NCBI RefSeq assembly: GCF_007483665.1
Contig: NZ_VIQO01000049.1
Span: 1 to 64,000 of the forward strand
Origin: Catellatospora sichuanensis
GTDB taxonomy: Bacteria; Actinomycetota; Actinomycetes; Mycobacteriales; Micromonosporaceae
Length of the DNA stretch: 64,000 nucleotides
Direction: 5' to 3'
Of the stretch, positions 52,908 to 64,000 are shown piece after piece. The translations under genes and the position numbers were made by a program. Under the pieces are notes generated by a model, which was not told the origin of the DNA, did no database searches, and saw only the letters and a list, made by a program, of their open reading frames with translations. Positions within the stretch are counted from its first letter, which is position 1. Every line of letters starts with the position of its first letter.

Positions 52908-53444
52908 TTACGAACGAAGTGACACTTTCGGTCGACGAGTCGGGTCCTGTTCAGCGCGGGCAAGCAGGTGGCGCGTGCGAGCCGCGGTCAGTCCATGCCC
53001 GCGTACCAACAACTGGACGGCTTCGCGGGCGAGGCTATGCCGTGACCACCCGATTTCAGCGACGGGCACGTGGCCTGTGGCATCACGCAGCGCGAGCAGA
53101 ACCGCGGCGATGGCGGGACCGACCGATGACGCTCGGACTGCGAGGATCTGGTGACCGTAGTACCGCACGCCGTGGACGGCCGCCACCGCGAGCCGCGTCC
53201 GTGCGACGGTGACCTCGATGAAGAAGGTGCCATCGCAGTCGTGATCGTCGCGCTCAGTATGTGGGCCGTCGTCGTATGGCACCGGCTCCATGGCAATCAC
53301 ACGGATGCAACGGTGCTTCGCCGCCGCGGCCAGCATGTCTTGGGCTCGGGCATCAAACACGACGTGCGGCAGGCGTCTAGGCAGCCTCAGCAGGCCGGCT
53401 GCGAGCCCAGCCGCGGCCAGACACATGACTGTCACCAGGGTCAT
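52908..53444 (-). CDS. Single-pass hypothetical protein
   Basis: ATG 53444 gives 178 residues: one helix (TLVTVMCLAAAGLAAGLLRL), then a mixed alpha/beta region with FFIEVTVARTRLAVAAVHGV and a His-rich acidic patch (ERDDHDCDG), and a C-terminal helical part (SLAREAVQLLVRGHGLTAAR). I recognise no family. An alternative ATG at 53543 follows directly on a copy of the conserved leader element (53571-53607), which suggests transcription from that leader whichever start is used. Confidence 0.5.
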   Translation of the reverse strand: MTLVTVMCLAAAGLAAGLLRLPRRLPHVVFDARAQDMLAAAAKHRCIRVIAMEPVPYDDGPHTERDDHDCDGTFFIEVTVARTRLAVAAVHGVRYYGHQILAVRASSVGPAIAAVLLALRDATGHVPVAEIGWSRHSLAREAVQLLVRGHGLTAARTRHLLARAEQDPTRRPKVSLRS

Positions 53445-53570
53445 CGTATGAGTCCGATGCAGGTACACGGCCTGGGATCCACGCCGGCAGCGGTCCGCTG
53501 CTGGGTCAGGCAAGGGCCAAGGGCGCTCAAGATGTGAGCTCATTTCGGTCGGCGGTCACGGTTCGACGTC

Positions 53571-53607
53571 GCCGACCAGGCTTCCCGGCACACCTGGGCG
53601 GAGTCTA
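53571..53607 (-). promoter_or_regulatory. Leader element copy D
   Basis: On the minus strand TAGACT (53607-53602) is followed after six bases by AGGTGTGCCGGGAAG, then CCTGGTCGGC. GGTCGGCG then pairs with a downstream CGCCGACC to make a hairpin. It matches three other copies in the window in both promoter spacing and sequence. Confidence 0.7.
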
Positions 53608-53774
53608 CCTGCACATTTGTGGGCGGTTGGACCGCCACCTAAAGGGCTGGCAGGTGCCGGATCGCGGGCTGGTCTCGGCGGCATCATCGTCACCGGGGCA
53701 GTGATGTGACGCGCTGCCGCCCTGATCACCGGGACAGCGCGGTGCCCGTATTGCGAGTAGCCGGTGACGGGCCG

Positions 53775-53830
53775 TACCGTGTGGGCCGGTGTGCCGGGAA
53801 GCCTGGTCGGCGATGACGTTGCCGTCTTGT
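53775..53830 (+). promoter_or_regulatory. Leader element copy C
   Basis: TACCGT (53775-53780), six bases, then CGGTGTGCCGGGAAG and CCTGGTCGGC (core 53788-53811). CGGC then pairs with GCCG near 53821. It precedes the STAS-domain gene at 53857. Confidence 0.65.
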
Positions 53831-53856
53831 AGGAGTTGCCTTAGCTGCCATACCCG

Positions 53857-54762
53857 ATGTCGATCTCGTCGGCTGTAGCGGCTTCGGCCTGCGGTGCGGC
53901 ATTGTCTGAAGAGCTCAGGATTCGCTTGAGCATGCGTGCAGGCAGCGTCTGCCTGATCGTCGCGGGTCATATGGACTTCTCGACAGCGCCCACGCTGAGT
54001 AAGGTCACTGTCGCGGTGCTGCACACTCGGGCGGCTGTCAGCTTGGCGCTGGACATGTCGGCGGTCACCTTCGTCGACACTGCCGGTGTCGCAGCGGTGA
54101 TCGCCTGCAGGCGCGAAGCAGTCCGCCGGAACCTGCCCTTCTCGGTAGTCGATCCGTCTGTGCCCGTGGCGGCGATGATGAGGTTGTGCGGTGTCGCCGA
54201 CCTCCTGGGGATCGCGGCCGGCGACAGTCCGGGTGCCTGGCCTGAGCGGGCAACCTGCGCACCGCGATACCGCCATGGCGTCCGGCACCCTTCGAGATGC
54301 CAAGGCCAGCCCGAGCGGTCGCTATGTGAAGACACCGAAAGCCGCACGGACCTGCTGGGGTGTGCGTGTCGGCGGCGATCGGGCTGTGAGGTCCCGCCGA
54401 CAGCGGGAACGGCGCGGCGCGGGTCACCGCGCCGGGAGGTTGTCGGCCAGGCGGGTGGCCAGCGGGCCGATGATCGCGAGCACGATGACGTACGCGGCGG
54501 TGAGCGCGTTGAGCTGCGGGAGGGCGACGAGGCTGGCGATGACGATGGAGAACTCGCCGCGGGCGATGAGGACGGTCCCGGCCCGCATCCGTCCCCTGCG
54601 GGCGGCTCCGTCACGGGCGGCGGCGTACCAGCCGGTGGCGATCTTCGTGGCGGCGGTGACGGCGGCCAGGACGAGTACGGCCGGCAGGACCGGGATCATG
54701 TCTCGCGGATTTATGGACAGGCCGATGGCGAGGAAGAACACGGCGGCGAACAGGTCGCGTAG
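53857..54762 (+). CDS. STAS-domain anti-anti-sigma-type protein, C-terminus uncertain
   Basis: The first 125 residues form a STAS domain: SVCLIVAGHMDFSTAPTLSK, VSLALDMSAVTFVDTAGVAA (with the phosphorylatable Thr in DTAG) and PVAAMMRLCGVADLLGI. Such proteins switch anti-sigma kinases. Beyond about residue 128 the frame is arginine-rich and runs 339 bases into the convergent antiporter gene, so the native stop has probably been lost by a frameshift. A shift at 54240 would stop at once. No good ribosome site is near ATG 53857. Copy C of the leader element lies upstream. Confidence 0.65.
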   Translation: MSISSAVAASACGAALSEELRIRLSMRAGSVCLIVAGHMDFSTAPTLSKVTVAVLHTRAAVSLALDMSAVTFVDTAGVAAVIACRREAVRRNLPFSVVDPSVPVAAMMRLCGVADLLGIAAGDSPGAWPERATCAPRYRHGVRHPSRCQGQPERSLCEDTESRTDLLGCACRRRSGCEVPPTAGTARRGSPRREVVGQAGGQRADDREHDDVRGGERVELREGDEAGDDDGELAAGDEDGPGPHPSPAGGSVTGGGVPAGGDLRGGGDGGQDEYGRQDRDHVSRIYGQADGEEEHGGEQVA

Positions 54763-55557
54763 CGGGGCCACGACACGGCGGGTGCGGTCGGCGACCTGAC
54801 CGGTGAGCGCGAGCCCGACCAGGAACGCCCCGACGGCGGCCGAGGCCTGCAGCAGTTCGGTGACCCCGGCGACGAGCAGGGTGAGGCTGAGCACGCGCAG
54901 CAGCAGCAGTTCGGGGTCGTCGGTGTCGACGATGCGGGCCAGCGGCCCGCCGAGGCGGTGGGTGGCGGCGAAGGCGAGGCTGATCGCGGCGACGGCGGCG
55001 GCGACGCTGAGCGCGGCCTGCCACCAGGCTCCGCCTGCGGCGAGCACGGCCAGCAGCGGCAGGAACGCGGCCATGGCGACGTCTTCGAGGACCAGCACCG
55101 ACAACACGGCGGGGGTTTCCCGGTTGGCCAGGCGCCGCAGGTCGTCCAGCAGGCGGGCGACGATTCCGGACGACGACACCCAGGTGATGCCGGACATGGC
55201 CAGGGCGCCGATCCAGCCGAGGCCGAGCAGCCAGCCGGCGACCGCGCCCGGGGCGGCGTTTAGCGCGAAGTCGATCCAGGCCGAGGGAATGTGGTGGCGG
55301 ACGCTGGCGGTGAACTCCCCGACGGTGAACTCGAGTCCGAGGGTGAGCAGGAGCAGGATGACGCCGATGGAGGCGCCGGTGGCCACGAACGCGCCCGCGG
55401 CAGGCACCGGCGCGACGCCGCCCGGTCCGAGGGCGAGCCCGGCGATCAGGTACAGGGGCACCGGGGAGTAGCCGAAACGGCGGGCCAGTGCGGCGAGGGT
55501 CGCCAGCGCGGCCAGCACGATTCCCAGTTCGATCAGCAGCGCCGAGGATCCGTGCAC
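54424..55557 (-). CDS. CPA2-type K+/H+ antiporter (KhtU-like)
   Basis: The 377-residue protein has about 12 helices, starting LIELGIVLAALATLAALARR. It has CPA2 signatures VPLYLIAGLALGPGG, ILLLLTLGLEFTVGEF and LSVLVLEDVAMAAFLPLL (ion-site Glu-Asp), and late ASAAVGAFLVGLALTGQ. There is no C-terminal TrkA-N domain, because the regulatory TrkA-C part is the separate upstream gene, as in KhtTU systems. It expels K+ in exchange for protons. It begins five bases after the partner's stop. Confidence 0.9.
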   Translation of the reverse strand: MHGSSALLIELGIVLAALATLAALARRFGYSPVPLYLIAGLALGPGGVAPVPAAGAFVATGASIGVILLLLTLGLEFTVGEFTASVRHHIPSAWIDFALNAAPGAVAGWLLGLGWIGALAMSGITWVSSSGIVARLLDDLRRLANRETPAVLSVLVLEDVAMAAFLPLLAVLAAGGAWWQAALSVAAAVAAISLAFAATHRLGGPLARIVDTDDPELLLLRVLSLTLLVAGVTELLQASAAVGAFLVGLALTGQVADRTRRVVAPLRDLFAAVFFLAIGLSINPRDMIPVLPAVLVLAAVTAATKIATGWYAAARDGAARRGRMRAGTVLIARGEFSIVIASLVALPQLNALTAAYVIVLAIIGPLATRLADNLPAR

Positions 55558-55561
55558 CGTG

Positions 55562-56053
55562 TTATCCGCTGATGATGGCTTGGACGCCGGCGATGCCCTC
55601 GTGGGTGCCGATGACCACCAGGATGTCGCCAGGACGCAGGATCTCGTCGGGCCGGGGCGAGGCCACGACGGTGTCGTCGCGGACCACCGCCACGATCGAC
55701 GCGCCGGTCAGGGTCCGGGCCCGGGTGTCGCCCAGCGGCCGCCCGGCGTACGGCGAAGAGCCGGTGACCGGCACCTGCCCGGCGCCGAGCCCGGGGATCT
55801 CCTTGGTCAGGTCGGCGAAGCGTTCGGCGATCCGCGGGGCACCCAGCACCTCGGCGACGACCTCGGCCTCCTCGGCGTCCAGCCGCCACAGCGGCCTCGG
55901 CGCATCGGGGTCGTCGCTGTAGGTCATGAACTCGACGTCGCCGCTGCGGCGGGTCACGACAGCGAACCGCTCGCCGCGGCCGGTGGTGAAGTCGTAGCGC
56001 ACCCCCACGCCTGGCAGCAGGACCTCGGTGACCTCCACCTGCGTCATCATCAC
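55562..56053 (-). CDS. KhtT-like TrkA-C regulatory subunit
   Basis: The 163-residue soluble protein has an N-terminal region (MTQVEVTEVLLPGVGVRYDF and GERFAVVTRRSGDVEF) typical of KhtT. It ends in a TrkA-C (RCK_C) domain (ARTLTGASIVAVVRDDTVVA, LRPGDILVVIGTHEGIAGV). KhtT gates the membrane antiporter in response to a nucleotide or pH. Its stop is four bases before the KhtU-like start, so the two are one operon. Confidence 0.92.
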   Translation of the reverse strand: MMMTQVEVTEVLLPGVGVRYDFTTGRGERFAVVTRRSGDVEFMTYSDDPDAPRPLWRLDAEEAEVVAEVLGAPRIAERFADLTKEIPGLGAGQVPVTGSSPYAGRPLGDTRARTLTGASIVAVVRDDTVVASPRPDEILRPGDILVVIGTHEGIAGVQAIISG

Positions 56054-56090
56054 CGAGTACGGCGCACGGCGCGGCTAAACCATGGATTCT

Positions 56091-57033
56091 CAGCTGCGCG
56101 GCGGACCCGCGACCTCGGCGGTCAGCGCCACCGCGTCAGGGAGGTGTTCGGGGGCGGTCAGGTGACCCATCGATGCGATGATCCGCAGGAGTGTGTTCGT
56201 GGTGCGCTGGACTACTGGCGCCGGGCGCGGTGTTGGCAGGAACCAGTCGTGTTCGCCGACGGTGACCAGGCACGGTAGATGTGGCGCGGTCGGCCAGCAG
56301 CGCGACGGGCAGCGGCGGCGGGGCCAGGGTCGTGCGGCAATTCGCGGCCATCAGGGTCATCCACTCCGCCTCCGTCTCGGGTACGTTGCGGCCGGGGGGC
56401 GACGAACAACTGCAGCACGTCACGGGTGCGGTCAGCGGTGGGACGCAGCAGCCACGCTGCTGAAACACCGACGAGCTTCGGGTCGACGGTGAGCCGGACG
56501 AACCCTGCGGGTGACACCAGCAGGCGTGCGGCGACGCGGGGCGAGCCTGCCGCCAGCGCAACCGCCGCACCCAGCGTGTTACCCGCCAGCACCACGCCGT
56601 CCATCTGTGTGACGTCGAGGACTTCGTCCAGTACGCGGCCGTACCAGGCCAGCCTGGCTCGCGGTGGTCGGCGCGGGTCGCTGAGGCCCGGCTGGCCCGG
56701 CAGGTCGACGATGGTTGTCGGCCAGTGTTGCGACAGCGCACGCAGCCATGGCAGCGCCGCTGCGGCGTTGTGCCCGGTTCCGGGGAGGACGACGATACTC
56801 GGTTTATCAGTACCAGCCGAGGTGAGATGGACCTTCTCGGCTGTGGTGTCGACGGTCGTGGTGGCCAGCGGGAAGTCCGCTCGCCCCAGGGCGTCTGAAC
56901 ACAACTGCCGCACCGAGCTGACCGCGTGCGTTTCGGTACACGGACTGCATTGCTCCGGTGCGGGCGGGCGCGTGGTTGGTCCAGGTCGCACCCACCCGCG
57001 CGGCGGCGCGGGGCGTAGCGCTGGATATGACAC
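56091..57033 (-). pseudogene. Alpha/beta hydrolase with frameshifts and Thr at the nucleophile elbow
   Basis: One frame gives PSIVVLPGTGHNAAAALPWL, TTIVDLPGQPGLSDPRRPPR and DGVVLAGNTLGAAVALAAGS. The nucleophile elbow is G-N-T-L-G where relatives have Ser. The sequence continues in a second frame as TEAEWMTLMAANCRTTLAPP, and in a third as CLVTVGEHDWFLPTPRPAPV and IIASMGHLTAPEHLPDAVAL (catalytic Asp and His regions) to a stop at 56091. At least two indels split it. It lies directly upstream of the KhtT gene. Confidence 0.7.
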
Positions 57034-57037
57034 AGGT

Positions 57038-57604
57038 TCAGGGCCTGGGAGCCGACGCCTGCGCCAGTTCCTTCCCGTCGGCGTCCAAAGCGGTTACCTG
57101 GGCGCCCTCGGCGGAGATGCCCGGCTTTCAGACCACGAACAAGTCGTCGTCGACGGCTGCTTGGACCATCTGCCCGGCTGGCAGTCGGGCTTGCACGCGG
57201 ACGGCGCCGGAGGGCGGGCGGCCCAGCAGCAGAGGCCGTTGAGCACCGACTCGTAGCCGCCGTGGAACAGCAGCCGATCGCCAGCGCTGTCTTCGACCAC
57301 GGTGCCGAATCGACCGGTGGTCGCGGCCGGTCCGCGCTGACAGGTGCCGATCCACCGCCCGCTGTCCAGTCGGTAGACACGCAGCCACGTCTGGCCGTCG
57401 CGCAGCGTCACCTCGGGGACCGGTTGCGTCTCAACCGGCTGGCCCAGGTCGGCCCAGCCGCTGATTGCACCGCTGCAGTTCGACGTCTTCTGACAGTGCC
57501 TGCGTTCTCGGATCGGGCCCGCCTCCCCAGCTGGCCAGCGCGAAAGTCGACGCGACGGCGGCCGTCCGCGCCCGCCGGGATCTTGCTCGGCGTTCGCCGC
57601 TCAC
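57038..57604 (-). pseudogene. Exported hypothetical protein, frameshifted and with in-frame TGA
   Basis: GTG 57604 opens a basic signal sequence (RRARTAAVASTFALASWGGG). After a shift, SGWADLGQPVETQPVPEVTL and VYRLDSGRWIGTCQRGPAAT continue in another frame. After a second shift, VRVQARLPAGQMVQAAVDDD and LFVV run to a TGA, and the same frame goes on with KPGISAEGAQVTALDADGKE to a natural stop at 57038. The pieces look like one exported protein of about 180 residues with paired cysteines. I recognise no family. Confidence 0.6.
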
Positions 57605-57704
57605 GGAATCTCACTTTCTCGCCGGGTGCCGGAGTCTAGACCGTTCAGCGCCGGATCCGCGCACCCACGCACTGGGGTACCCGCGCCGTAGGGTACCCGT
57701 GCGC

Positions 57705-57745
57705 TACGGTGTGGGCCGGTGTGCCGGGAAGTCTGGTCGGCAAGC
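57705..57745 (+). promoter_or_regulatory. Leader element copy B
   Basis: TACGGT (57705-57710), six bases, then CGGTGTGCCGGGAAG and TCTGGTCGGC (core 57718-57741). It is 40 bases upstream of the disrupted Ca2+/cation exchanger gene. The 15 bases before the core are nearly identical to copy C. Confidence 0.75.
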
Positions 57746-57780
57746 AGGACGCCTGTCGCTGGATTCATCTGGAGCACACC

Positions 57781-58315
57781 GTGATCACCGAAGCTCTGCT
57801 GGCAGTCGCCGGCCTCGGAGTTCGAAGCCGAGGGCGGCGCCGTGGTCGTCGCACCTGCCAAACGCGCGGCAGCCTGGTTCGAGCCGGTACGCACCGTGCT
57901 GGGCCTGGCCGGGGTACTGGCCGGTGCACAGCTACTGGTCGCCAACGCCCCCACAATCGCCGCCCAGCTCGGCGTGCCGCAGATCATCATCGGGTTCACG
58001 CTGGTTGCGTTGGGCACGTCGCTGCCGGAACTGGTCACCACGATCCAGGCACAGCGCCGCGGCGAGACCGATCTGGTCGTGGGCAACCTTTTCGGCAGCA
58101 ACCTGTTCAACAGCCTCGCCGGCGGGGCGTTCATTGGCTTCGCGGCCGGCGTCGACCACCCCGGCACGGCCGCGCTCACGCTGCTGTCGGCGATGGTGTT
58201 CACTGCGGTGCTGGCATGGGCGCTGCTGCGGCGCGGTCTGCGCCTGACTCGCATCGACGGCGTGGTGCTGCTGGGTGTTTACGCGCTCACGCTGCCACTG
58301 CTACTGGCGTCCTGA
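57781..58315 (+). pseudogene. CaCA-family Ca2+/cation antiporter with internal deletion
   Basis: GTG 57781 begins ITEALLAVAGL, a normal start of the first helix. After about 12 codons the sequence jumps, out of frame, to FEAEGGAVVVAPAKRAAAWF and the complete second half: VPQIIIGFTLVALGTSLPEL and TDLVVGNLFGSNLFNSLAGG (alpha-2 repeat with the conserved Glu and Asn). The whole alpha-1 repeat is deleted, so transport is impossible. The remaining half could be translated from GTG 57842 as a 157-residue fragment. The leader element is intact. Confidence 0.8.
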
Positions 58316-58410
58316 CCAGCACGAACACGACGTTGTTGCCGGGGTTCGGCAGCCTTTGGCTGTCGAACTCGGCCGAGTCCGAACCTAGAACCACAAGCCG
58401 GAGGCAGCCG

Positions 58411-59346
58411 ATGCTGTGGCACATGACAGACGACATCGCCGTGCGGGCCGAGGACTTGACCAAGTTCTACGGCACCCGCCGCGGCATCGAAGGCCTCGAC
58501 CTTGAGGTGCGTGCCGGGGAGGTAATGGGCTTCCTCGGCCCTAACTGCGCCGGCAAGACCACCACCATCCGGCTGTTGCTGGACTTCCTGCGCCCCACCT
58601 GCGGCCACGCCACCGTGCTCGGAATGGACCCCCGCCGGGATAAGGCCACACTGCACCGCCACATCGGCTACCTGCCCGGCGAGCTCGCGTTCCCGGGCCG
58701 GGAGAGAGCCGCCGACCTGCTGCGGTTCTTCGCCGACTCCCGCAGCGGCGTCGCCTGGCAGACCGTCACCGGCCTGGCCGAGCGCCTGGAACTGGACCTG
58801 TCGCGGCCGATCCACACCCTGTCCAAGGGCAACAAGCAGAAGGTCGGCCTGGTCCAAGCGTTCATGCACTCCCCCGCTCTGCTGATCCTCGACGAGCCGA
58901 CCAGCGGCCTTGACCCACTGATGCAGCAGGAGTTCCTGGCACTGGTCCGCGAAGCGCGCGCCGCGGGGCAGACGGTGTTCATGTCCTCCCACGTTCTGGC
59001 GGAGGTGCAGCAGACCGCTGACCGGGTCGCGATCGTCCGCGACGGACGCCTGGCCGCCGTCGAACGGGTCGAGTCACTGGGCCGCCGCGCGGTGCGGACC
59101 GTCGAGATCCACTTCGACGGGCCGGTGGAGGTCGCCGAGTTCGCTGCGCTGCCCGGCGTCACCGACGTGACCGTCTCGGGACCGGTGCTGCGCTGCACCG
59201 TCGACGGCCGTCTGGACCCGCTCATCAAAGCCGCTGCCCGCCACGAGGTCGTCGACCTGCTGTCGACCGAACCCGACCTCGAAGAGACCTTCCTCAGCTT
59301 CTACTACCACTCCGAAGGAGCAGGCGATGTCCCCGCTGGTACGTAA
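58411..59346 (+). CDS. ABC exporter ATP-binding protein with Cys in Walker A
   Basis: ATG 58411 follows GGAGG and gives 311 residues. Walker A reads LGPNCAGKTTTIRLLL, with Cys where nearly all relatives have Gly. The signature is TLSKGNKQKVGLVQAFMHS, Walker B LLILDEPTSGLDP, H-loop MSSHVLAEVQ. A C-terminal 90-residue extension (VRTVEIHFDGPVEVAEF...) is typical of DrrA/NatA-like exporters. It overlaps the permease by 20 bases. Confidence 0.9.
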   Translation: MLWHMTDDIAVRAEDLTKFYGTRRGIEGLDLEVRAGEVMGFLGPNCAGKTTTIRLLLDFLRPTCGHATVLGMDPRRDKATLHRHIGYLPGELAFPGRERAADLLRFFADSRSGVAWQTVTGLAERLELDLSRPIHTLSKGNKQKVGLVQAFMHSPALLILDEPTSGLDPLMQQEFLALVREARAAGQTVFMSSHVLAEVQQTADRVAIVRDGRLAAVERVESLGRRAVRTVEIHFDGPVEVAEFAALPGVTDVTVSGPVLRCTVDGRLDPLIKAAARHEVVDLLSTEPDLEETFLSFYYHSEGAGDVPAGT

Positions 59347-60112
59347 GACCTGGCGCGACGACCGCCGCGCCATCATCGGCTGGGCGGCCGGCATCGCCGC
59401 GTTCACCACCGTCTACACCTCCTTCTACGCCAGCTTCCAAGGCGCCGCACAGCTCAAAGACGACGCCCTGCCCGAAGGCATGAAGAACTTCCTGTCGATC
59501 CAGGACATGACCTCCGGCACCGGCTACCTGCAGGCCACCGTCTACGGCCTCGTCGGACCACTGCTGGTGGTCATGGCCGCCATCATCCTCACCGTGCGCA
59601 CCATCCCCCGACCCGAAGAAGACGGCGGCATCGAGCTGCTCATGGTCAACCCGCTGTCCCGGCGCGCGTTCGCCACCCAGCGCCTGACGGCGACCTTCAT
59701 CACCGTGACCGCGCTGGCCGCCATTCCAGGCGTGCTGGTGCTGGCGATCGCACCCGGGGTCGGTATCGACGTGCCGGCAGCCAACATCATCTCGGCCTCG
59801 GCCGGGCTGGTCGCCCTGGCCTGTTGCTTCCTGGGCATCGCCTTCGGCGTGGGAGCGGCCACGGGCCGCCGTGGCATCGCCCTGGGCGTCACCGGTGCGC
59901 TCGCGGTCGGCACCTACATCCTGCGTGGCGTGTCCGGGATCGTCGACGGGGGAGCATGGCTGCGGTGGCTGTCACCGTTCCACTACTTCATCGGCACCGA
60001 CCCGCTGCACACCGGCTGGCACCCCGCCCATCTGCTCGCTCTCGCGGCGGCAGGTGCCGTCGGCGCGGCCGTGGGGATCGTCATGTTCGACCGCCGCGAC
60101 GTCGGTGTCTGA
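59327..60112 (+). CDS. ABC exporter permease
   Basis: The 261-residue product has six helices (RAIIGWAAGIAAFTTVYTSF, GLVGPLLVVMAAIILTVRTI, ATFITVTALAAIPGVLVLAI, IISASAGLVALACCFLGIAF, GIALGVTGALAVGTYIL, LLALAAAGAVGAAVGIVMF) and the ABC-2 loop PRPEEDGGIELLMVNPLSRR. It is coupled to the ATPase by a 20-base overlap. It precedes a PucR regulator gene on the same strand. Confidence 0.88.
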   Translation: MSPLVRKTWRDDRRAIIGWAAGIAAFTTVYTSFYASFQGAAQLKDDALPEGMKNFLSIQDMTSGTGYLQATVYGLVGPLLVVMAAIILTVRTIPRPEEDGGIELLMVNPLSRRAFATQRLTATFITVTALAAIPGVLVLAIAPGVGIDVPAANIISASAGLVALACCFLGIAFGVGAATGRRGIALGVTGALAVGTYILRGVSGIVDGGAWLRWLSPFHYFIGTDPLHTGWHPAHLLALAAAGAVGAAVGIVMFDRRDVGV

Positions 60113-60193
60113 ACCTCGGCCGCTGGGGCGGGACCTGGCCCGCCTGCCACCCGCCCCAGCCCGTCCACGCCGCTCTCCGGCCGAAGGACTCCC

Positions 60194-61243
60194 ATGAGCG
60201 AAACCCATCCCACCTGGCTCACCGACGCCTGCGCAGAGCTGCTCCACACGAGCTCCGGGCGGCACCTGGCCGAAGTGAGCGCACTGGGCGCATGCGCTGC
60301 GAGCGCGTCGCTGACCAGCGCCGCCACCGTCGATGCGCTACTGCAGGCGGCAGCCGACCACTGGGCCGCAACCGACCCCGCTGACGCCCACGAGCACGGC
60401 CTGGCGATACTCGCCACGCTGCGGCAGGTCACCGCCGCAGTGCTCGACGGCTACCACCGCAGCGCCCGCGACGAAGCCACCCACCGCGAAACCGAACGCG
60501 CCGCATTCGTCGACGACCTGCTCGCCGCCCACCCCGACCCCGGACACCTCGCCGCCCGCGCCCAGCGCTACGGGATTCGCCTGTCCGGCCAGCACACCGT
60601 CATAGCGGCCCGCACCACCGGGCTGCCCCCAGCGGCGGCGTACGCCGTCGACGACGTCCTCGCCCAGCGCTTCGGCGCGGCCAACACCCTCACGACGCTG
60701 CGCGACGACGAGCTGATCTGCGTCGTAGCCGGCGGGCTGCGCGGCGTGCCCGCCGAACTCGCCCGCCACCTGCACACCCACCTTCCGGCAGGCAGCTGGC
60801 AGATTGCCGTCGGGCGCACCCACACCGGGCTGGGCGGCCTGGCGACCTCCCTCGCCGAGGCCCGCAACGCGCTGCACCTGGCAGACCGGCTCGGGTTCAC
60901 CACCCCCGTCCTGCACGCCGCCGACCTGCTCGTCTTCCCGGTCCTGCTCCGCGACCGCGACGCCATCACCGACCTGGTCACTACCGTGCTCGGCCCGCTC
61001 ACCCAAGCCCGCGGCGGCGCCCAGCCGTACCTGGACACCCTGGCAGTGTTGTTCGACAACGAAGGCAACCACACCGCCACCGCCCGGCAGCTGCACGTCA
61101 GCGTCCGAGCCGTCACCTACCGCCTCGACCGCATCCACGCCCTCACCGGCTACCACCCCGGCGAGCCCACCCAGCGATTCACGCTGCACACCGCGGTGCT
61201 CGGAGCCCGCCTGCTCGGCTGGCCCGGGGGTACCAATCGCTGA
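60194..61243 (+). CDS. PucR-family transcriptional regulator
   Basis: The 349-residue regulator has a middle GGDEF-like/CdaR region (about 130-260; LICVVAGGLRGVPAELARHL, WQIAVGRTHTGLGGLATSL). Its C-terminal PucR HTH reads LDTLAVLFDNEGNHTATARQ, LHVSVRAVTYRLDRIHALTG and PTQRFTLHTAVLGARLL. Such proteins activate catabolic or export genes. It lies 81 bases after the ABC permease and may regulate that operon. Confidence 0.88.
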   Translation: MSETHPTWLTDACAELLHTSSGRHLAEVSALGACAASASLTSAATVDALLQAAADHWAATDPADAHEHGLAILATLRQVTAAVLDGYHRSARDEATHRETERAAFVDDLLAAHPDPGHLAARAQRYGIRLSGQHTVIAARTTGLPPAAAYAVDDVLAQRFGAANTLTTLRDDELICVVAGGLRGVPAELARHLHTHLPAGSWQIAVGRTHTGLGGLATSLAEARNALHLADRLGFTTPVLHAADLLVFPVLLRDRDAITDLVTTVLGPLTQARGGAQPYLDTLAVLFDNEGNHTATARQLHVSVRAVTYRLDRIHALTGYHPGEPTQRFTLHTAVLGARLLGWPGGTNR

Positions 61244-61375
61244 TCGCGGATCTCACCCTGCCCACCGGCAGCCGGACTGTGCCTTTCCAGCCGGCATGCG
61301 GAGTTGCGGCCGCGTGCTGCCGCCCGGGTCAGCGCGCGTCCGGCACGCTGGCTCCTGAGGCAGGTCGGTACGTGG

Positions 61376-61861
61376 TCAGTCGTCGGGGTACTGCACGAAC
61401 GTGCCTTCACGCCGAAAGCCGATCGTTGCGGTTACGATGCTGCCGCGGGAGTCGCCTGCACCGGCATCAATATGCATGCCGTCGGCCAAAGTCCGGACCA
61501 GCCACAAGCCACGGCTGGCGGGCGACCCAGGCTCTGGCTGCGCCCGTCCGTCGATTCCTGCGGGGATACCGGGACCCTGGTCGGATACGCGGCAGTAGAT
61601 GGCGTCGGCGGCGGTCCACAGCTGCATCCCGCCCACGCCACCGCCATGGCGCACAACATTGGTGGCCAGCTCATACGCGACGAAGACCAGAGCGTCGACC
61701 CGGTCTGCGGGCATACCGGCCGCGTCGGCGTGGGCGGCTACCGCAGGGCGCAGACTGACCAGTTCGGCTTCGGTGAATGGCAGCTCGACGAGCAGTACCG
61801 CGTCGGGGGGCAGGCCCTGCGCCGGTGCCTGCTGAAACTGGCTGCCCGGTTCAGTCGCCAT
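61376..61861 (-). CDS. RsbW-like ATP-binding protein (HATPase_c_2)
   Basis: The 161-residue protein has ADRVDALVFVAYELATNVVR (N-box), VSDQGPGIPAGIDGR (G1) and GLWLVRTLADGMHIDAG (G2). These are the serine-kinase-type anti-sigma ATPase signatures. It overlaps the 3' end of the upstream MEDS-STAS gene by 11 bases, so kinase and antagonist are made together, a partner-switch pair. The target sigma factor is not in view. Confidence 0.88.
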   Translation of the reverse strand: MATEPGSQFQQAPAQGLPPDAVLLVELPFTEAELVSLRPAVAAHADAAGMPADRVDALVFVAYELATNVVRHGGGVGGMQLWTAADAIYCRVSDQGPGIPAGIDGRAQPEPGSPASRGLWLVRTLADGMHIDAGAGDSRGSIVTATIGFRREGTFVQYPDD

Positions 61862-62720
61862 GTCGGGCCGTTGTCAGGGTCACCCTTGCCTGTTCCTGCA
61901 TTCCGAGCGCGGCGAGAACGTCGAAGGAGATGCGTGTGCAACGGACGGTCATGCGCTGGCGGCCGGTGAGTCCGAGTGCGGTCTGGACGATCACCCCGGC
62001 CGTGGTGGTGTCCATGAACCTCAGTTGGGTCAGGTTCACGTCGATGTGGTCGTCGAGCGAGAGGGCCTCTGACAGGGCCAGGGTCAGTGGTTCGATGGCC
62101 CGGTAGTCGATTTCGCCGGCGATCCGGACGCCGGTCGGCACATGCTGGCGGCAGATCCGCAGCAGGGCGTCGTCGTGGTAGGTGACAGCGGTGACGTTCA
62201 TGCTGTGGTTGTCGGCCGCAGTAGCGAGGGTCACGGTGTCGAAGCACTGCCGGTCAAACTGGCACGCAGCGGTGGCGTTCTGCCCGGCGAGCATCCGGGT
62301 CAGCCTCGACTCGTACTCCATCAGATCGGCCACACCGCCGACTGGCCGCAGCGCCCAGCACATGTCGCCGGTCACGCGCAGCCCGCCGTACCCGTCGCGG
62401 TTGGCCTGGTCGATCTGCGCCTGCCAGCGCACGATCGTCGCCGAAGGGTCGAATGACCCTTGCGGTGTGAAAAACTGCCCGCTTGCAGCGACCTGCAGTT
62501 GTCCCGAGCGGGCGGCCGACCCGATGCCCACGCCTCGGGCGGCCAGTTCGTCGGACAGGGCGGTCTGGCTGACGGACTCGGTCAGGCACAGCACCTTCTG
62601 GCCCAGCCGGAGGCCGTCACGCACGAACGCGGCGACGATGTCCAGGCGCTCGTCGTTGTCGGAGAATGTCAGGCAGGCGTGATCACCCGGTTTGAGGTCC
62701 TCCACCGACGTACCGCTCAC
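61851..62720 (-). CDS. MEDS-STAS two-domain regulator
   Basis: GTG 62720 sits six bases after GGAG and gives 289 residues. The N-terminal MEDS domain (VEDLKPGDHACLTFSDNDER, LRLGQKVLCLTESVSQTAL, DGYGGLRVTGDMCWALRPVG) is a DcmR-type sensory module. The C-terminal STAS domain (IDVNLTQLRFMDTTTAGVIV) has a Thr-rich phosphosite. It probably senses a small ligand and releases a sigma factor via the downstream RsbW-like kinase. Codons upstream to 62930 lie in the promoter region and are not translated in my reading. Confidence 0.88.
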   Translation of the reverse strand: MSGTSVEDLKPGDHACLTFSDNDERLDIVAAFVRDGLRLGQKVLCLTESVSQTALSDELAARGVGIGSAARSGQLQVAASGQFFTPQGSFDPSATIVRWQAQIDQANRDGYGGLRVTGDMCWALRPVGGVADLMEYESRLTRMLAGQNATAACQFDRQCFDTVTLATAADNHSMNVTAVTYHDDALLRICRQHVPTGVRIAGEIDYRAIEPLTLALSEALSLDDHIDVNLTQLRFMDTTTAGVIVQTALGLTGRQRMTVRCTRISFDVLAALGMQEQARVTLTTARHGD

Positions 62721-62945
62721 TGCCAACTCCTCACACCCCGACACAGCGAGCACCAACGTAGCCCCTCCCACCGATCCAGCAGCGTCCTTCCCCTGCGGTG
62801 GCTGGCCAAACCCCATCCACGCCGTTGCTCCTGTGCCCGCCGACGCCAACGGACAGTTTTGGTAGGTCAGGGGCACGGCCGACCGGCCACCTGGGTGTGG
62901 CCGGAGCCGTTGATCACCGACGTCGGCCATGGCTGATCATGCGGG

Positions 62946-63008
62946 TAGGGTGGAGACAGGTGTGCCGGGAAGTCTGGTCGGCGAATCTATCTCGCCGACC
63001 ACCGGAGG
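62946..63008 (+). promoter_or_regulatory. Leader element copy A, upstream of nhaA
   Basis: TAGGGT (62946-62951), six bases, then AGGTGTGCCGGGAAG and TCTGGTCGGC (core 62959-62982). GGTCGGCGA (62976-62984) pairs exactly with TCGCCGACC (62992-63000). CCGG (62965-62968) can pair with CCGG (63002-63005), which touches the ribosome site GGAGG at 63004-63008. ATG 63014 follows. This architecture could control nhaA translation. Confidence 0.8.
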
Positions 63009-63013
63009 CCGTT

Positions 63014-64000
63014 ATGTCCCCTTCCGTCCCTAGCAAGGTGATCTTCGGGCGGGGATCGTGGGCCGAGGCCCGGCGGCTGGCCGACATCCTGCGCCAAGAA
63101 ACCGTCGGCGGCGCGCTCCTGCTCGCCGCAGCTGTGGCCGCGATGATTTGGGCCAACTCGCCCTGGTCGCCTGCCTACGGCGCGCTACGGGAGTTCACCG
63201 TCGGTCCGGCCTTCTTGCACCTGAACCTGCCGCTGGCCGTGTGGGCCGCCGACGGGCTACTAGCGATCTTCTTCTTCGTCGCCGGCCTCGAGCTCAAACG
63301 TGAATTCGTCGCAGGCGACCTGCGCGAGCCCCGCCGGGCGGTCGTGCCGATCGCGGCGGCCGCCGGCGGCGTGGTCGTGCCCGCGCTGATCTACCTGGCC
63401 CTTAACCACGCCGACGCGTCCGCGGCGCGCGGCTGGGCGATCCCCACCGCCACCGACATCGCCTTCGCCCTGGCTGTACTCGCCGTCATCGGCCGCAATC
63501 TGCCCTCGGCGTTGCGCACGTTCCTGCTCACCCTCGCCGTCGTCGACGACCTCATCGCGATCGCCATCATCGCCGTCTTCTACACCCAGAGTCTGCACCC
63601 GCTCCCCCTCGCCGCAGCACTGATCCCGCTGGCCGCATTCGCCGTCGCGGTCCAGCGCCGCCACCGCTCCCCCTGGCTGCTGCTGCCCCTGGCCACGGCG
63701 ACCTGGGCCCTCGTGCACGCCTCCGGCATCCACGCCACCGTCGCCGGAGTGCTGCTGGCCTTCACCGTCCCGGTCCGGTCCAGGCCCGGCGGCGACGCCC
63801 ACGGCGACCACGACCCCGGCCTGGCCGGACACTTCGAACACCGGCTCCGCCCGATTTCCGCAGGCATCGCCGTCCCGATCTTCGCCTTGCTGTCAGCCGG
63901 GGTGACCATCGGCGGCCTGAGCGGCCTGGCCGACGCCTTCACCTCCGGCATCACCGTCGGCATCACCGCCGGCCTGGTCATCGGCAAGACCGTCGGCGTG
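63014..64000 (+). CDS. nhaA: NhaA Na+/H+ antiporter (3' end beyond window)
   Basis: ATG 63014 follows GGAGG. The 329 visible residues match Nha[18 protein letters not shown] (TM1), [20 protein letters not shown] (TM2), [20 protein letters not shown] (TM4), and [20 protein letters not shown], where the paired Asp form the Na+/H+ site. [15 protein letters not shown] and the later unwound helix follow. The frame is open to the end of the window, so about the last quarter is missing. It exchanges two protons for one Na+ or Li+. The structured leader (copy A) directly precedes it. Confidence 0.95.

Follow-up and report, generated by a model that had tools for sequence, protein, structure and literature searches.

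A 25-nucleotide hairpin in antiporter gene leaders of Actinobacteria and Ktedonobacteria: an apparently undescribed regulatory RNA and probable switch

The element copies in the Catellatospora window

The analysis concerns 64,000 nucleotides (nt) of Catellatospora sichuanensis DNA (assembly GCF_007483665.1, contig NZ_VIQO01000049.1, positions 1 to 64,000, forward strand), the whole of which is called the window here. A core sequence, GGTGTGCCGGGAAGYCTGGTCGGC, matches the window at four places without a mismatch (copies A to D, Table 1), as had been reported in an original prediction made from the sequence alone. None of 100 shuffles of the window contained four core matches, with up to three mismatches permitted. 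Copy D lies in the leader of nhaA, the gene of a Na+/H+ antiporter, whose match in the whole genome extends to C36:64225. As described below, the element is real and widespread, a cis-regulatory RNA of antiporter genes that has apparently escaped description so far.

The genes behind the copies had been given as nhaA, a cation exchanger gene, a STAS gene and an unknown gene, and Pfam agrees. The Na_Ca_ex gene behind copy C (PF01699, 5.8e-27) comprises about one Na_Ca_ex domain (157 amino acids) and looks broken, because it lies in another frame than the start codon placed after the leader. A Pfam scan of the open reading frame (ORF) behind copy A gave no family match; its predicted product of about 211 amino acids has, by eye, a hydrophobic stretch near the start. 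The hexamer geometry of the prediction was likewise borne out, since in four of four copies a TANNNT sequence ends six bases before the A or C that precedes the core.

Six copies are found in the whole C. sichuanensis genome, four of them in the window. The two others lie on other contigs and have a GGAGCG 5' end, which is one mismatch to the searched pattern. By Pfam, positions 53571-64000 of the window form an ion-homeostasis island that holds the copies together with genes for a STAS protein, a CPA-type exchanger and a separate TrkA-C protein, Na_Ca_ex, an ABC ATPase and an ABC-2 membrane protein, a PucR-type regulator, a MEDS-STAS protein and NhaA; the ABC ATPase and ABC-2 membrane pair is possibly NatAB-like. 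In other genomes, e.g. G169, G175 and G177, several copies are also clustered within a few kilobases.

Table 1. Element copies and associated features in the window and elsewhere in the genome
Feature	Position	Strand	Basis and context
Copy A, core nt 1-24, stem GCCG/CGGC	53571-53594	minus	exact match; precedes ORF 52908-53543 (minus) of unknown family
TAGACT, -10-like hexamer, copy A	53602-53607	minus	sequence and pattern match
CGCCGACC, downstream strand of copy A, can pair with nt 18-25 (alternative helix)	53547-53554	minus	sequence
Copy B	53788-53811	plus	exact match; precedes STAS-domain gene (53857; Pfam STAS)
TACCGT, -10-like hexamer, copy B	53775-53780	plus	sequence and pattern match
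Copy C	57718-57741	plus	exact match; followed by start codon at 57781 and out-of-frame Na_Ca_ex gene (57842-58315)
TACGGT, -10-like hexamer, copy C	57705-57710	plus	sequence and pattern match
Copy D, nhaA leader	62959-62982	plus	exact match
Stem of copy D, nt 6-9 with nt 21-24	62964-62967 with 62979-62982	plus	pairing inferred from covariation in homologues
TAGGGT, -10-like hexamer, copy D	62946-62951	plus	sequence and pattern match
CGCCGACC, alternative-helix strand of copy D for nt 18-25 (62976-62983)	62993-63000	plus	sequence, predicted fold
GGAGG, likely nhaA ribosome-binding site	63004-63008	plus	sequence
nhaA, Na+/H+ antiporter	63014-64000, continues beyond window end	plus	PF06965, 9.4e-106 for 63014-63991
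GGAGCG-form copy	G000:C25:32034-32057		precedes CBS-domain gene
GGAGCG-form copy	G000:C39:17949-17972		precedes CBS-domain gene

Distribution, downstream genes and promoter position

In one class-level scan the pattern was the exact 24-base form, with bases 3, 5 and 15 left free. In this form the element was found in 154 of the 246 genomes of a class-level sample (64 of 104 genera), and the reversed pattern gave no hit. It was also present in 21 of 47 genomes of Ktedonobacteria, which we take to be the class of the Ktedonospora genome; two of the 47 were known beforehand to carry it. When an 18-base part was searched with one mismatch permitted, 187 of 200 genomes of the family had a match. 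This figure includes chance matches, because 24 of the 30 one-mismatch places among the matches listed had neither the hexamer nor the GGNGNG start (four had both, two the start only). In public genome contigs at least 120 stretches hold the element. Judged by title, the matches listed come from Actinobacteria, three Chloroflexi (L090, L105, L146) and one alphaproteobacterium, and the last looks like a chance match because the CG at bases 21-22 is missing. Viral contigs gave no exact match, and a phage origin was rejected on this ground.

The first genes after the element are mainly cation/proton antiporters of unrelated families. After 150 copies Pfam identified NhaA 70 times, Na_H_Exchanger 13, ABC 10, Na_Ca_ex 6, CBS 6 and CitMHS 5 times, besides a few STAS, SpoIIE, TrkH and others. 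This set derives from 170 copies, from which L058 (a chance match) and L026 were removed; four of the remaining 168 had no ORF, and 150 of the 164 ORFs were scanned, leaving out 12 short or cut ones, L053 and L116. A second set (55 ORFs, with one more copy lacking an ORF) yielded NhaA 32, Na_H_Exchanger 9, Proton_antipo of the Mrp/complex-I type 3, P-type ATPase 2 and CitMHS_2 1. In Ktedonobacteria (29 distinct copies from 30 canonical matches) the counts were Na_H_Exchanger 16, NhaA 4, P450 3, Na_Ca_ex 2, DUF2254 2 and PP2C 1. Counts in the three samples can overlap between families, and some first genes may be wrong because ORF starts were chosen by a script. The original prediction had proposed that homologues be checked for a position near cation transporters as opposed to a random one, and antiporters lead in all three samples. 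The occurrence of one element before different transporter families in two groups of bacteria suggests that what they have in common is a signal, and not descent from a single gene.

Two of the minor families deserve a remark. CBS genes, which follow both GGAGCG copies, recur as first genes in other genomes (6/150). Genes for DUF2254 membrane proteins lie behind the element in 2 of 29 cases in Ktedonobacteria (the L298-L327 set) and in 1 of 55 in the second set (L163-L297), and the element upstream may hint at a cation-related role of this family.

With respect to the promoter, at least 120 of the 170 copies have a TANNNT hexamer whose first base lies between -14 and -12. The count was taken from this mostly actinobacterial set, which was not chosen for the hexamer, since a larger set of 240 copies had been partly selected for it. 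At this spacing the core would begin the transcript in Actinobacteria. In Ktedonobacteria only 1 of the 28 copies with enough upstream sequence has the hexamer there, and the element therefore does not belong to the promoter; the description as a promoter-leader element, which the original prediction had given, would hold for the mostly actinobacterial copies and not for Ktedonobacteria. No position of a -35 element (TTGA/TTGNC) was clearly enriched. The start codon follows about 60 nt beyond base 1 (medians 60 and 62 in two sets).

The hairpin and the helices that compete with it

The core can form a hairpin, P1 (G6CCG9/C21GGC24), which closes a strongly conserved 11-nt loop, GGAAGNCUGGU. A structured RNA with a covarying stem had been anticipated, and covariation is indeed seen in homologues, in a stem that had not been named. 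The inverted repeat that had been noticed instead, GGTCGGCG...CGCCGACC, is present in copies A (53571, minus) and D (62959) and absent from copies B and C; we read it as an alternative helix that excludes the covarying stem, not as the hairpin it had been taken for.

When the loop, the 5' bases and the hexamer were fixed and the stem was left free, 50 places were found in 36 of 296 genomes of the phylum (control 0), 46 of them with GCCG as the 5' arm. The corresponding search in Ktedonobacteria showed GCCG/CGGC kept in 30 of 31 matches. The 246 genomes contain two double changes at bases 7/23 and two at 8/22, all four from C-G to U-A, and the stem-free search added a third at 7/23 (U7-A23 in L186). 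All five variant copies precede nhaA. Single changes of pair 7/23 in the 246 genomes amount to none at base 7 and one at base 23 (L267), and with independent bases far fewer doubles than singles would be expected. In G284 and G455 (and probably in G429) variant and canonical copies occur in one genome, which speaks against an altered DNA-binding protein. Bases 5 and 25 are also linked. Among 240 copies, nearly all actinobacterial, U-G occurs 153 times, C-A 35, U-A 20 and C-G once, with a mutual information of 0.385 compared with a maximum of 0.076 in 5000 shuffles. Judged by these sequence comparisons, the element acts as an RNA. The covarying stem and the antiporter association together are what is expected of a riboswitch, namely a conserved structured RNA in the leaders of genes with linked functions.

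In 20 of 29 Ktedonobacteria copies a run of 7-12 contiguous pairs joins nucleotides within 1-12 to nucleotides within 26-39. The pairing lies directly before a T-rich stretch and has the shape of an intrinsic terminator that excludes P1. Such hairpins were found in 113 of 2900 shuffles and in 1 of 237 other copies (L164). The partner strand varies (G-C, G-U, U-A, U-G, C-G) with the pairing kept. Predicted energies of the terminator-like fold range from -18.0 to -25.9 kcal/mol versus -7.5 to -12.9 kcal/mol with P1 forced. As the terminator fold is the stronger one, P1 would need stabilising by something to prevent the terminator, which is the logic of an ON switch. The anatomy in Ktedonobacteria is therefore that expected of antitermination, in which the formed hairpin would mean that the gene is ON and the competing one would terminate. 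An expression platform mutually exclusive with the aptamer, as in riboswitches, is found by sequence in these 20 of 29 copies.

The actinobacterial leaders were folded where the ribosome site was clear, which left 105 leaders for pairing and 114 for access. Nucleotides 18-24 are paired with the linker at 0.686 versus 0.353 for shuffled linkers (p 2e-14, 105 leaders), and in the 86 of the 105 leaders showing this helix its end lies upstream of the ribosome site by a median of 6 nt. In copy D, too, the CGCCGACC strand stops just 5' of that site. A predicted excluding helix is thus enriched in Actinobacteria, and it may either block translation or stop transcription. The original prediction had the pairing reach the nhaA ribosome site from copy A. 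It is copy D, at 62959, that nhaA follows, and across many leaders pairing of the ribosome site shows no excess over shuffled controls. Sequestration of the site by the 5' strand was likewise rejected: it is predicted for copy D and does not exceed the shuffled linkers of the 105 leaders.

Known RNAs, competing explanations and meaning

None of the 4227 families of Rfam 15 reaches its cut-off in the window. Relaxed scans, with expectation values (E) up to 10 around copies A/B and D and up to 1 in 15 further loci, showed none of nhaA-I, nhaA-II and DUF1646, and the 15 loci gave no match at all at this value; this agrees with the original prediction, which could not match the element to a described class. 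The sub-threshold matches, isrG over copy B (E 1.3, 11.2 bits, cut-off 100) and sR30 and sR19 upstream of copy D, are at chance level. nhaA-I (RF03057) was not found in the C. sichuanensis genome or in one relative (control: Caulobacter, 1/14 control genomes). A possible resemblance to part of the cobalamin riboswitch (GGGAAG..GGU) was without support from Rfam.

According to the main text of PMC9646797, the Li+ riboswitches (nhaA-I and nhaA-II) precede nhaA and other monovalent-cation transporter genes and switch genes on; in this they are like our element, which also precedes nhaA and monovalent-cation transporter genes. In size they differ from it, with 55 positions in the nhaA-I model RF03057 against one 4-base-pair hairpin in 25 nt. 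The Na+-I riboswitch (DUF1646 motif) is described in the main texts of PMC9337991 and PMC9646797 as associated with Na+-related genes, whose expression it activates. In its 308 examples the bottom of P1 and the P2 loop hold conserved nucleotides (PMC9337991, main text), i.e. it has two helices, unlike the single hairpin of the element, with which it shares a Na+-related gene set. The word start actinobacteri- is absent from the main texts of both papers, as is Streptomyces from that of PMC9646797. A search of the open literature by sequence and topic, with most subscription journals and all preprints outside its reach, found no description of the element.

The hairpin has hardly changed between two groups of bacteria, stands before antiporter genes and in Ktedonobacteria overlaps a terminator-like structure; it probably serves as a small RNA switch, not described so far, by which salt-export genes are turned on. 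We propose that the element acts in cis as an RNA switch in cation/proton antiporter leaders, and that its core would be the 25-nt hairpin P1 (nt 6-9 with 21-24) with its conserved 11-nt loop, joined in Actinobacteria by a mostly non-Watson-Crick 5/25 contact. P1 would compete with a stronger alternative helix. In Ktedonobacteria a downstream strand would take the 5' strand (within nt 1-12) to form the intrinsic-terminator-like hairpin. In Actinobacteria it would be the 3' strand (nt 18-24) that is taken, by the linker immediately preceding the ribosome site. A sensed signal would stabilise P1 and so block the alternative helix, with the outcome in Ktedonobacteria of read-through and a gene that is ON. 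Because the controlled transporters share a substrate, the likeliest ligand would be intracellular Na+ (or Li+, or a linked alkaline or osmotic signal), sensed directly by the loop. We regard it as very probable that the element is an RNA switch, and as fairly probable that it senses its ligand directly; that the ligand is Na+ or Li+ is a serious candidate on which we would not insist. The mechanism as a whole, built on sequence comparison, seems to us somewhat better than an even guess.

Several observations weigh against this proposal. In Actinobacteria, pairing of the ribosome site with the core was not above that of shuffled linkers (p 0.49 and 0.17, 105 leaders), predicted openness of the site was higher in natural than in shuffled leaders (0.46 vs 0.38), and forcing P1 lowered predicted access by more than 0.1 in 36 of 114 leaders and raised it in 19 of 114; because of these results the actinobacterial output step is unsupported. 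In Ktedonobacteria nine of 29 copies have no detected terminator, some of the 20 have poor T-tracts, the 5/25 rule is not seen and several copies are near-copies of one another. The shuffle statistics ignore relatedness, and an alignment-wide covariation score in which 5/25 counted as a pair was reached by 485 of 500 column shuffles. The single-change control in the 246 genomes is confined to pair 7/23. Unpaired single changes of the stem do occur (C7 to G in L226; G23 to A in L267, which precedes a Na_H_Exchanger gene), as do a C8 to U wobble in L206 and a doubtful C24 to G in L198. The invariance of the loop is partly by construction, because most search patterns fixed its bases, and single loop changes were seen in L197, L199, L217 and L250. 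Some first genes are not transporters (P450 3/29 in Ktedonobacteria, PPDK_N 3/150). Finally, of 30 nhaA loci in the same and related genomes (21 relatives; 30 of 40 nhaA matches were read), 22 lack the element (L237-L248, L253, L254, L257, L260-L266). The eight that carry it share one size range of the nhaA match, and the nhaA paralogues without it may be under different control.

Among the alternatives, an RNA switch that answers to another antiporter-linked signal, such as cytoplasmic pH, Ca2+, K+ or a nucleotide second messenger instead of Na+/Li+, would account for the presence of Na_Ca_ex, TrkH, P-type ATPase, CBS, STAS, SpoIIE, PP2C and ABC among the first genes. We consider it rather unlikely, as the NhaA, CPA and Mrp families have Na+/H+ antiport as their shared function (complex I subunits also match the Mrp Pfam model).

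The hairpin might also be stabilised by an RNA-binding protein and not by a small ligand, in protein-mediated antitermination or translation control. In ribonucleic antiterminators (RAT) of the BglG/LicT type a small hairpin overlaps the 5' strand of the terminator, and its formation leads to read-through by way of a protein. In Ktedonobacteria the element has a similar arrangement with the terminator-like hairpin, and its conserved loop would be as compatible with contact by a protein as with an ion site. No RNA-binding regulator, however, occurs among the first-gene families of the three samples (one of which shows 25 of 29 families), and such a protein would need to have been kept together with its site across many families of one phylum and also in Ktedonobacteria, so that on present analysis we hold this to be improbable.

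That the core is a DNA operator for a dimeric repressor seems very improbable. It contains an imperfect palindrome of 19 base pairs, GCCGNNNAGNCTNNNCGGC, an inverted repeat centred on the variable base 15, and a site at +1, as suggested by the hexamer spacing for most copies, is typical for a repressor. An operator would, however, be a symmetric site that tolerates a change in one arm, and pair 7/23 was found changed in both bases twice and in one base once; in G284 and G455 the two arms have changed jointly in a genome that retains a canonical copy. The core is asymmetric (GGA against GGT), and in at least 120 of 170 copies the hexamer keeps to the same side and strand of it. The 5/25 rule (U-G, C-A) is not palindromic, and in Ktedonobacteria the copies are without the hexamer spacing and form part of terminator-like hairpins. 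A simple repeat, an insertion-sequence footprint or other mobile DNA, which four exact copies within 10 kilobases might suggest, can practically be dismissed, given that conservation is limited to about 25 bases in leaders that otherwise differ, that the antiporter-gene association holds in two groups and that viral contigs lack an exact match.

Two further candidates were rejected. A leaderless upstream ORF would lose both of its possible GTG starts (nt 2-4 and nt 4-6) in the GGAGCG copies (7/170), which makes a conserved peptide unlikely. An antisense target of one small RNA would have to accommodate copies that differ at bases 3, 5 and 15 in one genome, which argues against a single pairing partner.

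In its most far-reaching form, which we put forward tentatively and hold to be open to real doubt, the RNA switch would be an undescribed and very widespread class of alkali-cation (Na+) riboswitch. Its whole aptamer would be a single 25-nt hairpin, located in Actinobacteria at or beside the first transcribed base, with the 5' strand serving as terminator arm in one group and the 3' strand as switching strand in the other. It would then be the main Na+ sensor of antiporter genes in many Actinobacteria and Ktedonobacteria.

Few bacterial Na+ sensors are known, and NhaR is named in the main text of PMC9337991 as the only validated Na+-selective gene control protein. If confirmed, the element would be a sensor for much of the Actinobacteria and a very small natural aptamer in which ion recognition by a minimal loop could be tested directly. 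Whether or not it has a ligand, a covarying hairpin at antiporter genes, overlapping terminator-like structures, represents a concrete regulatory RNA family absent from Rfam 15.

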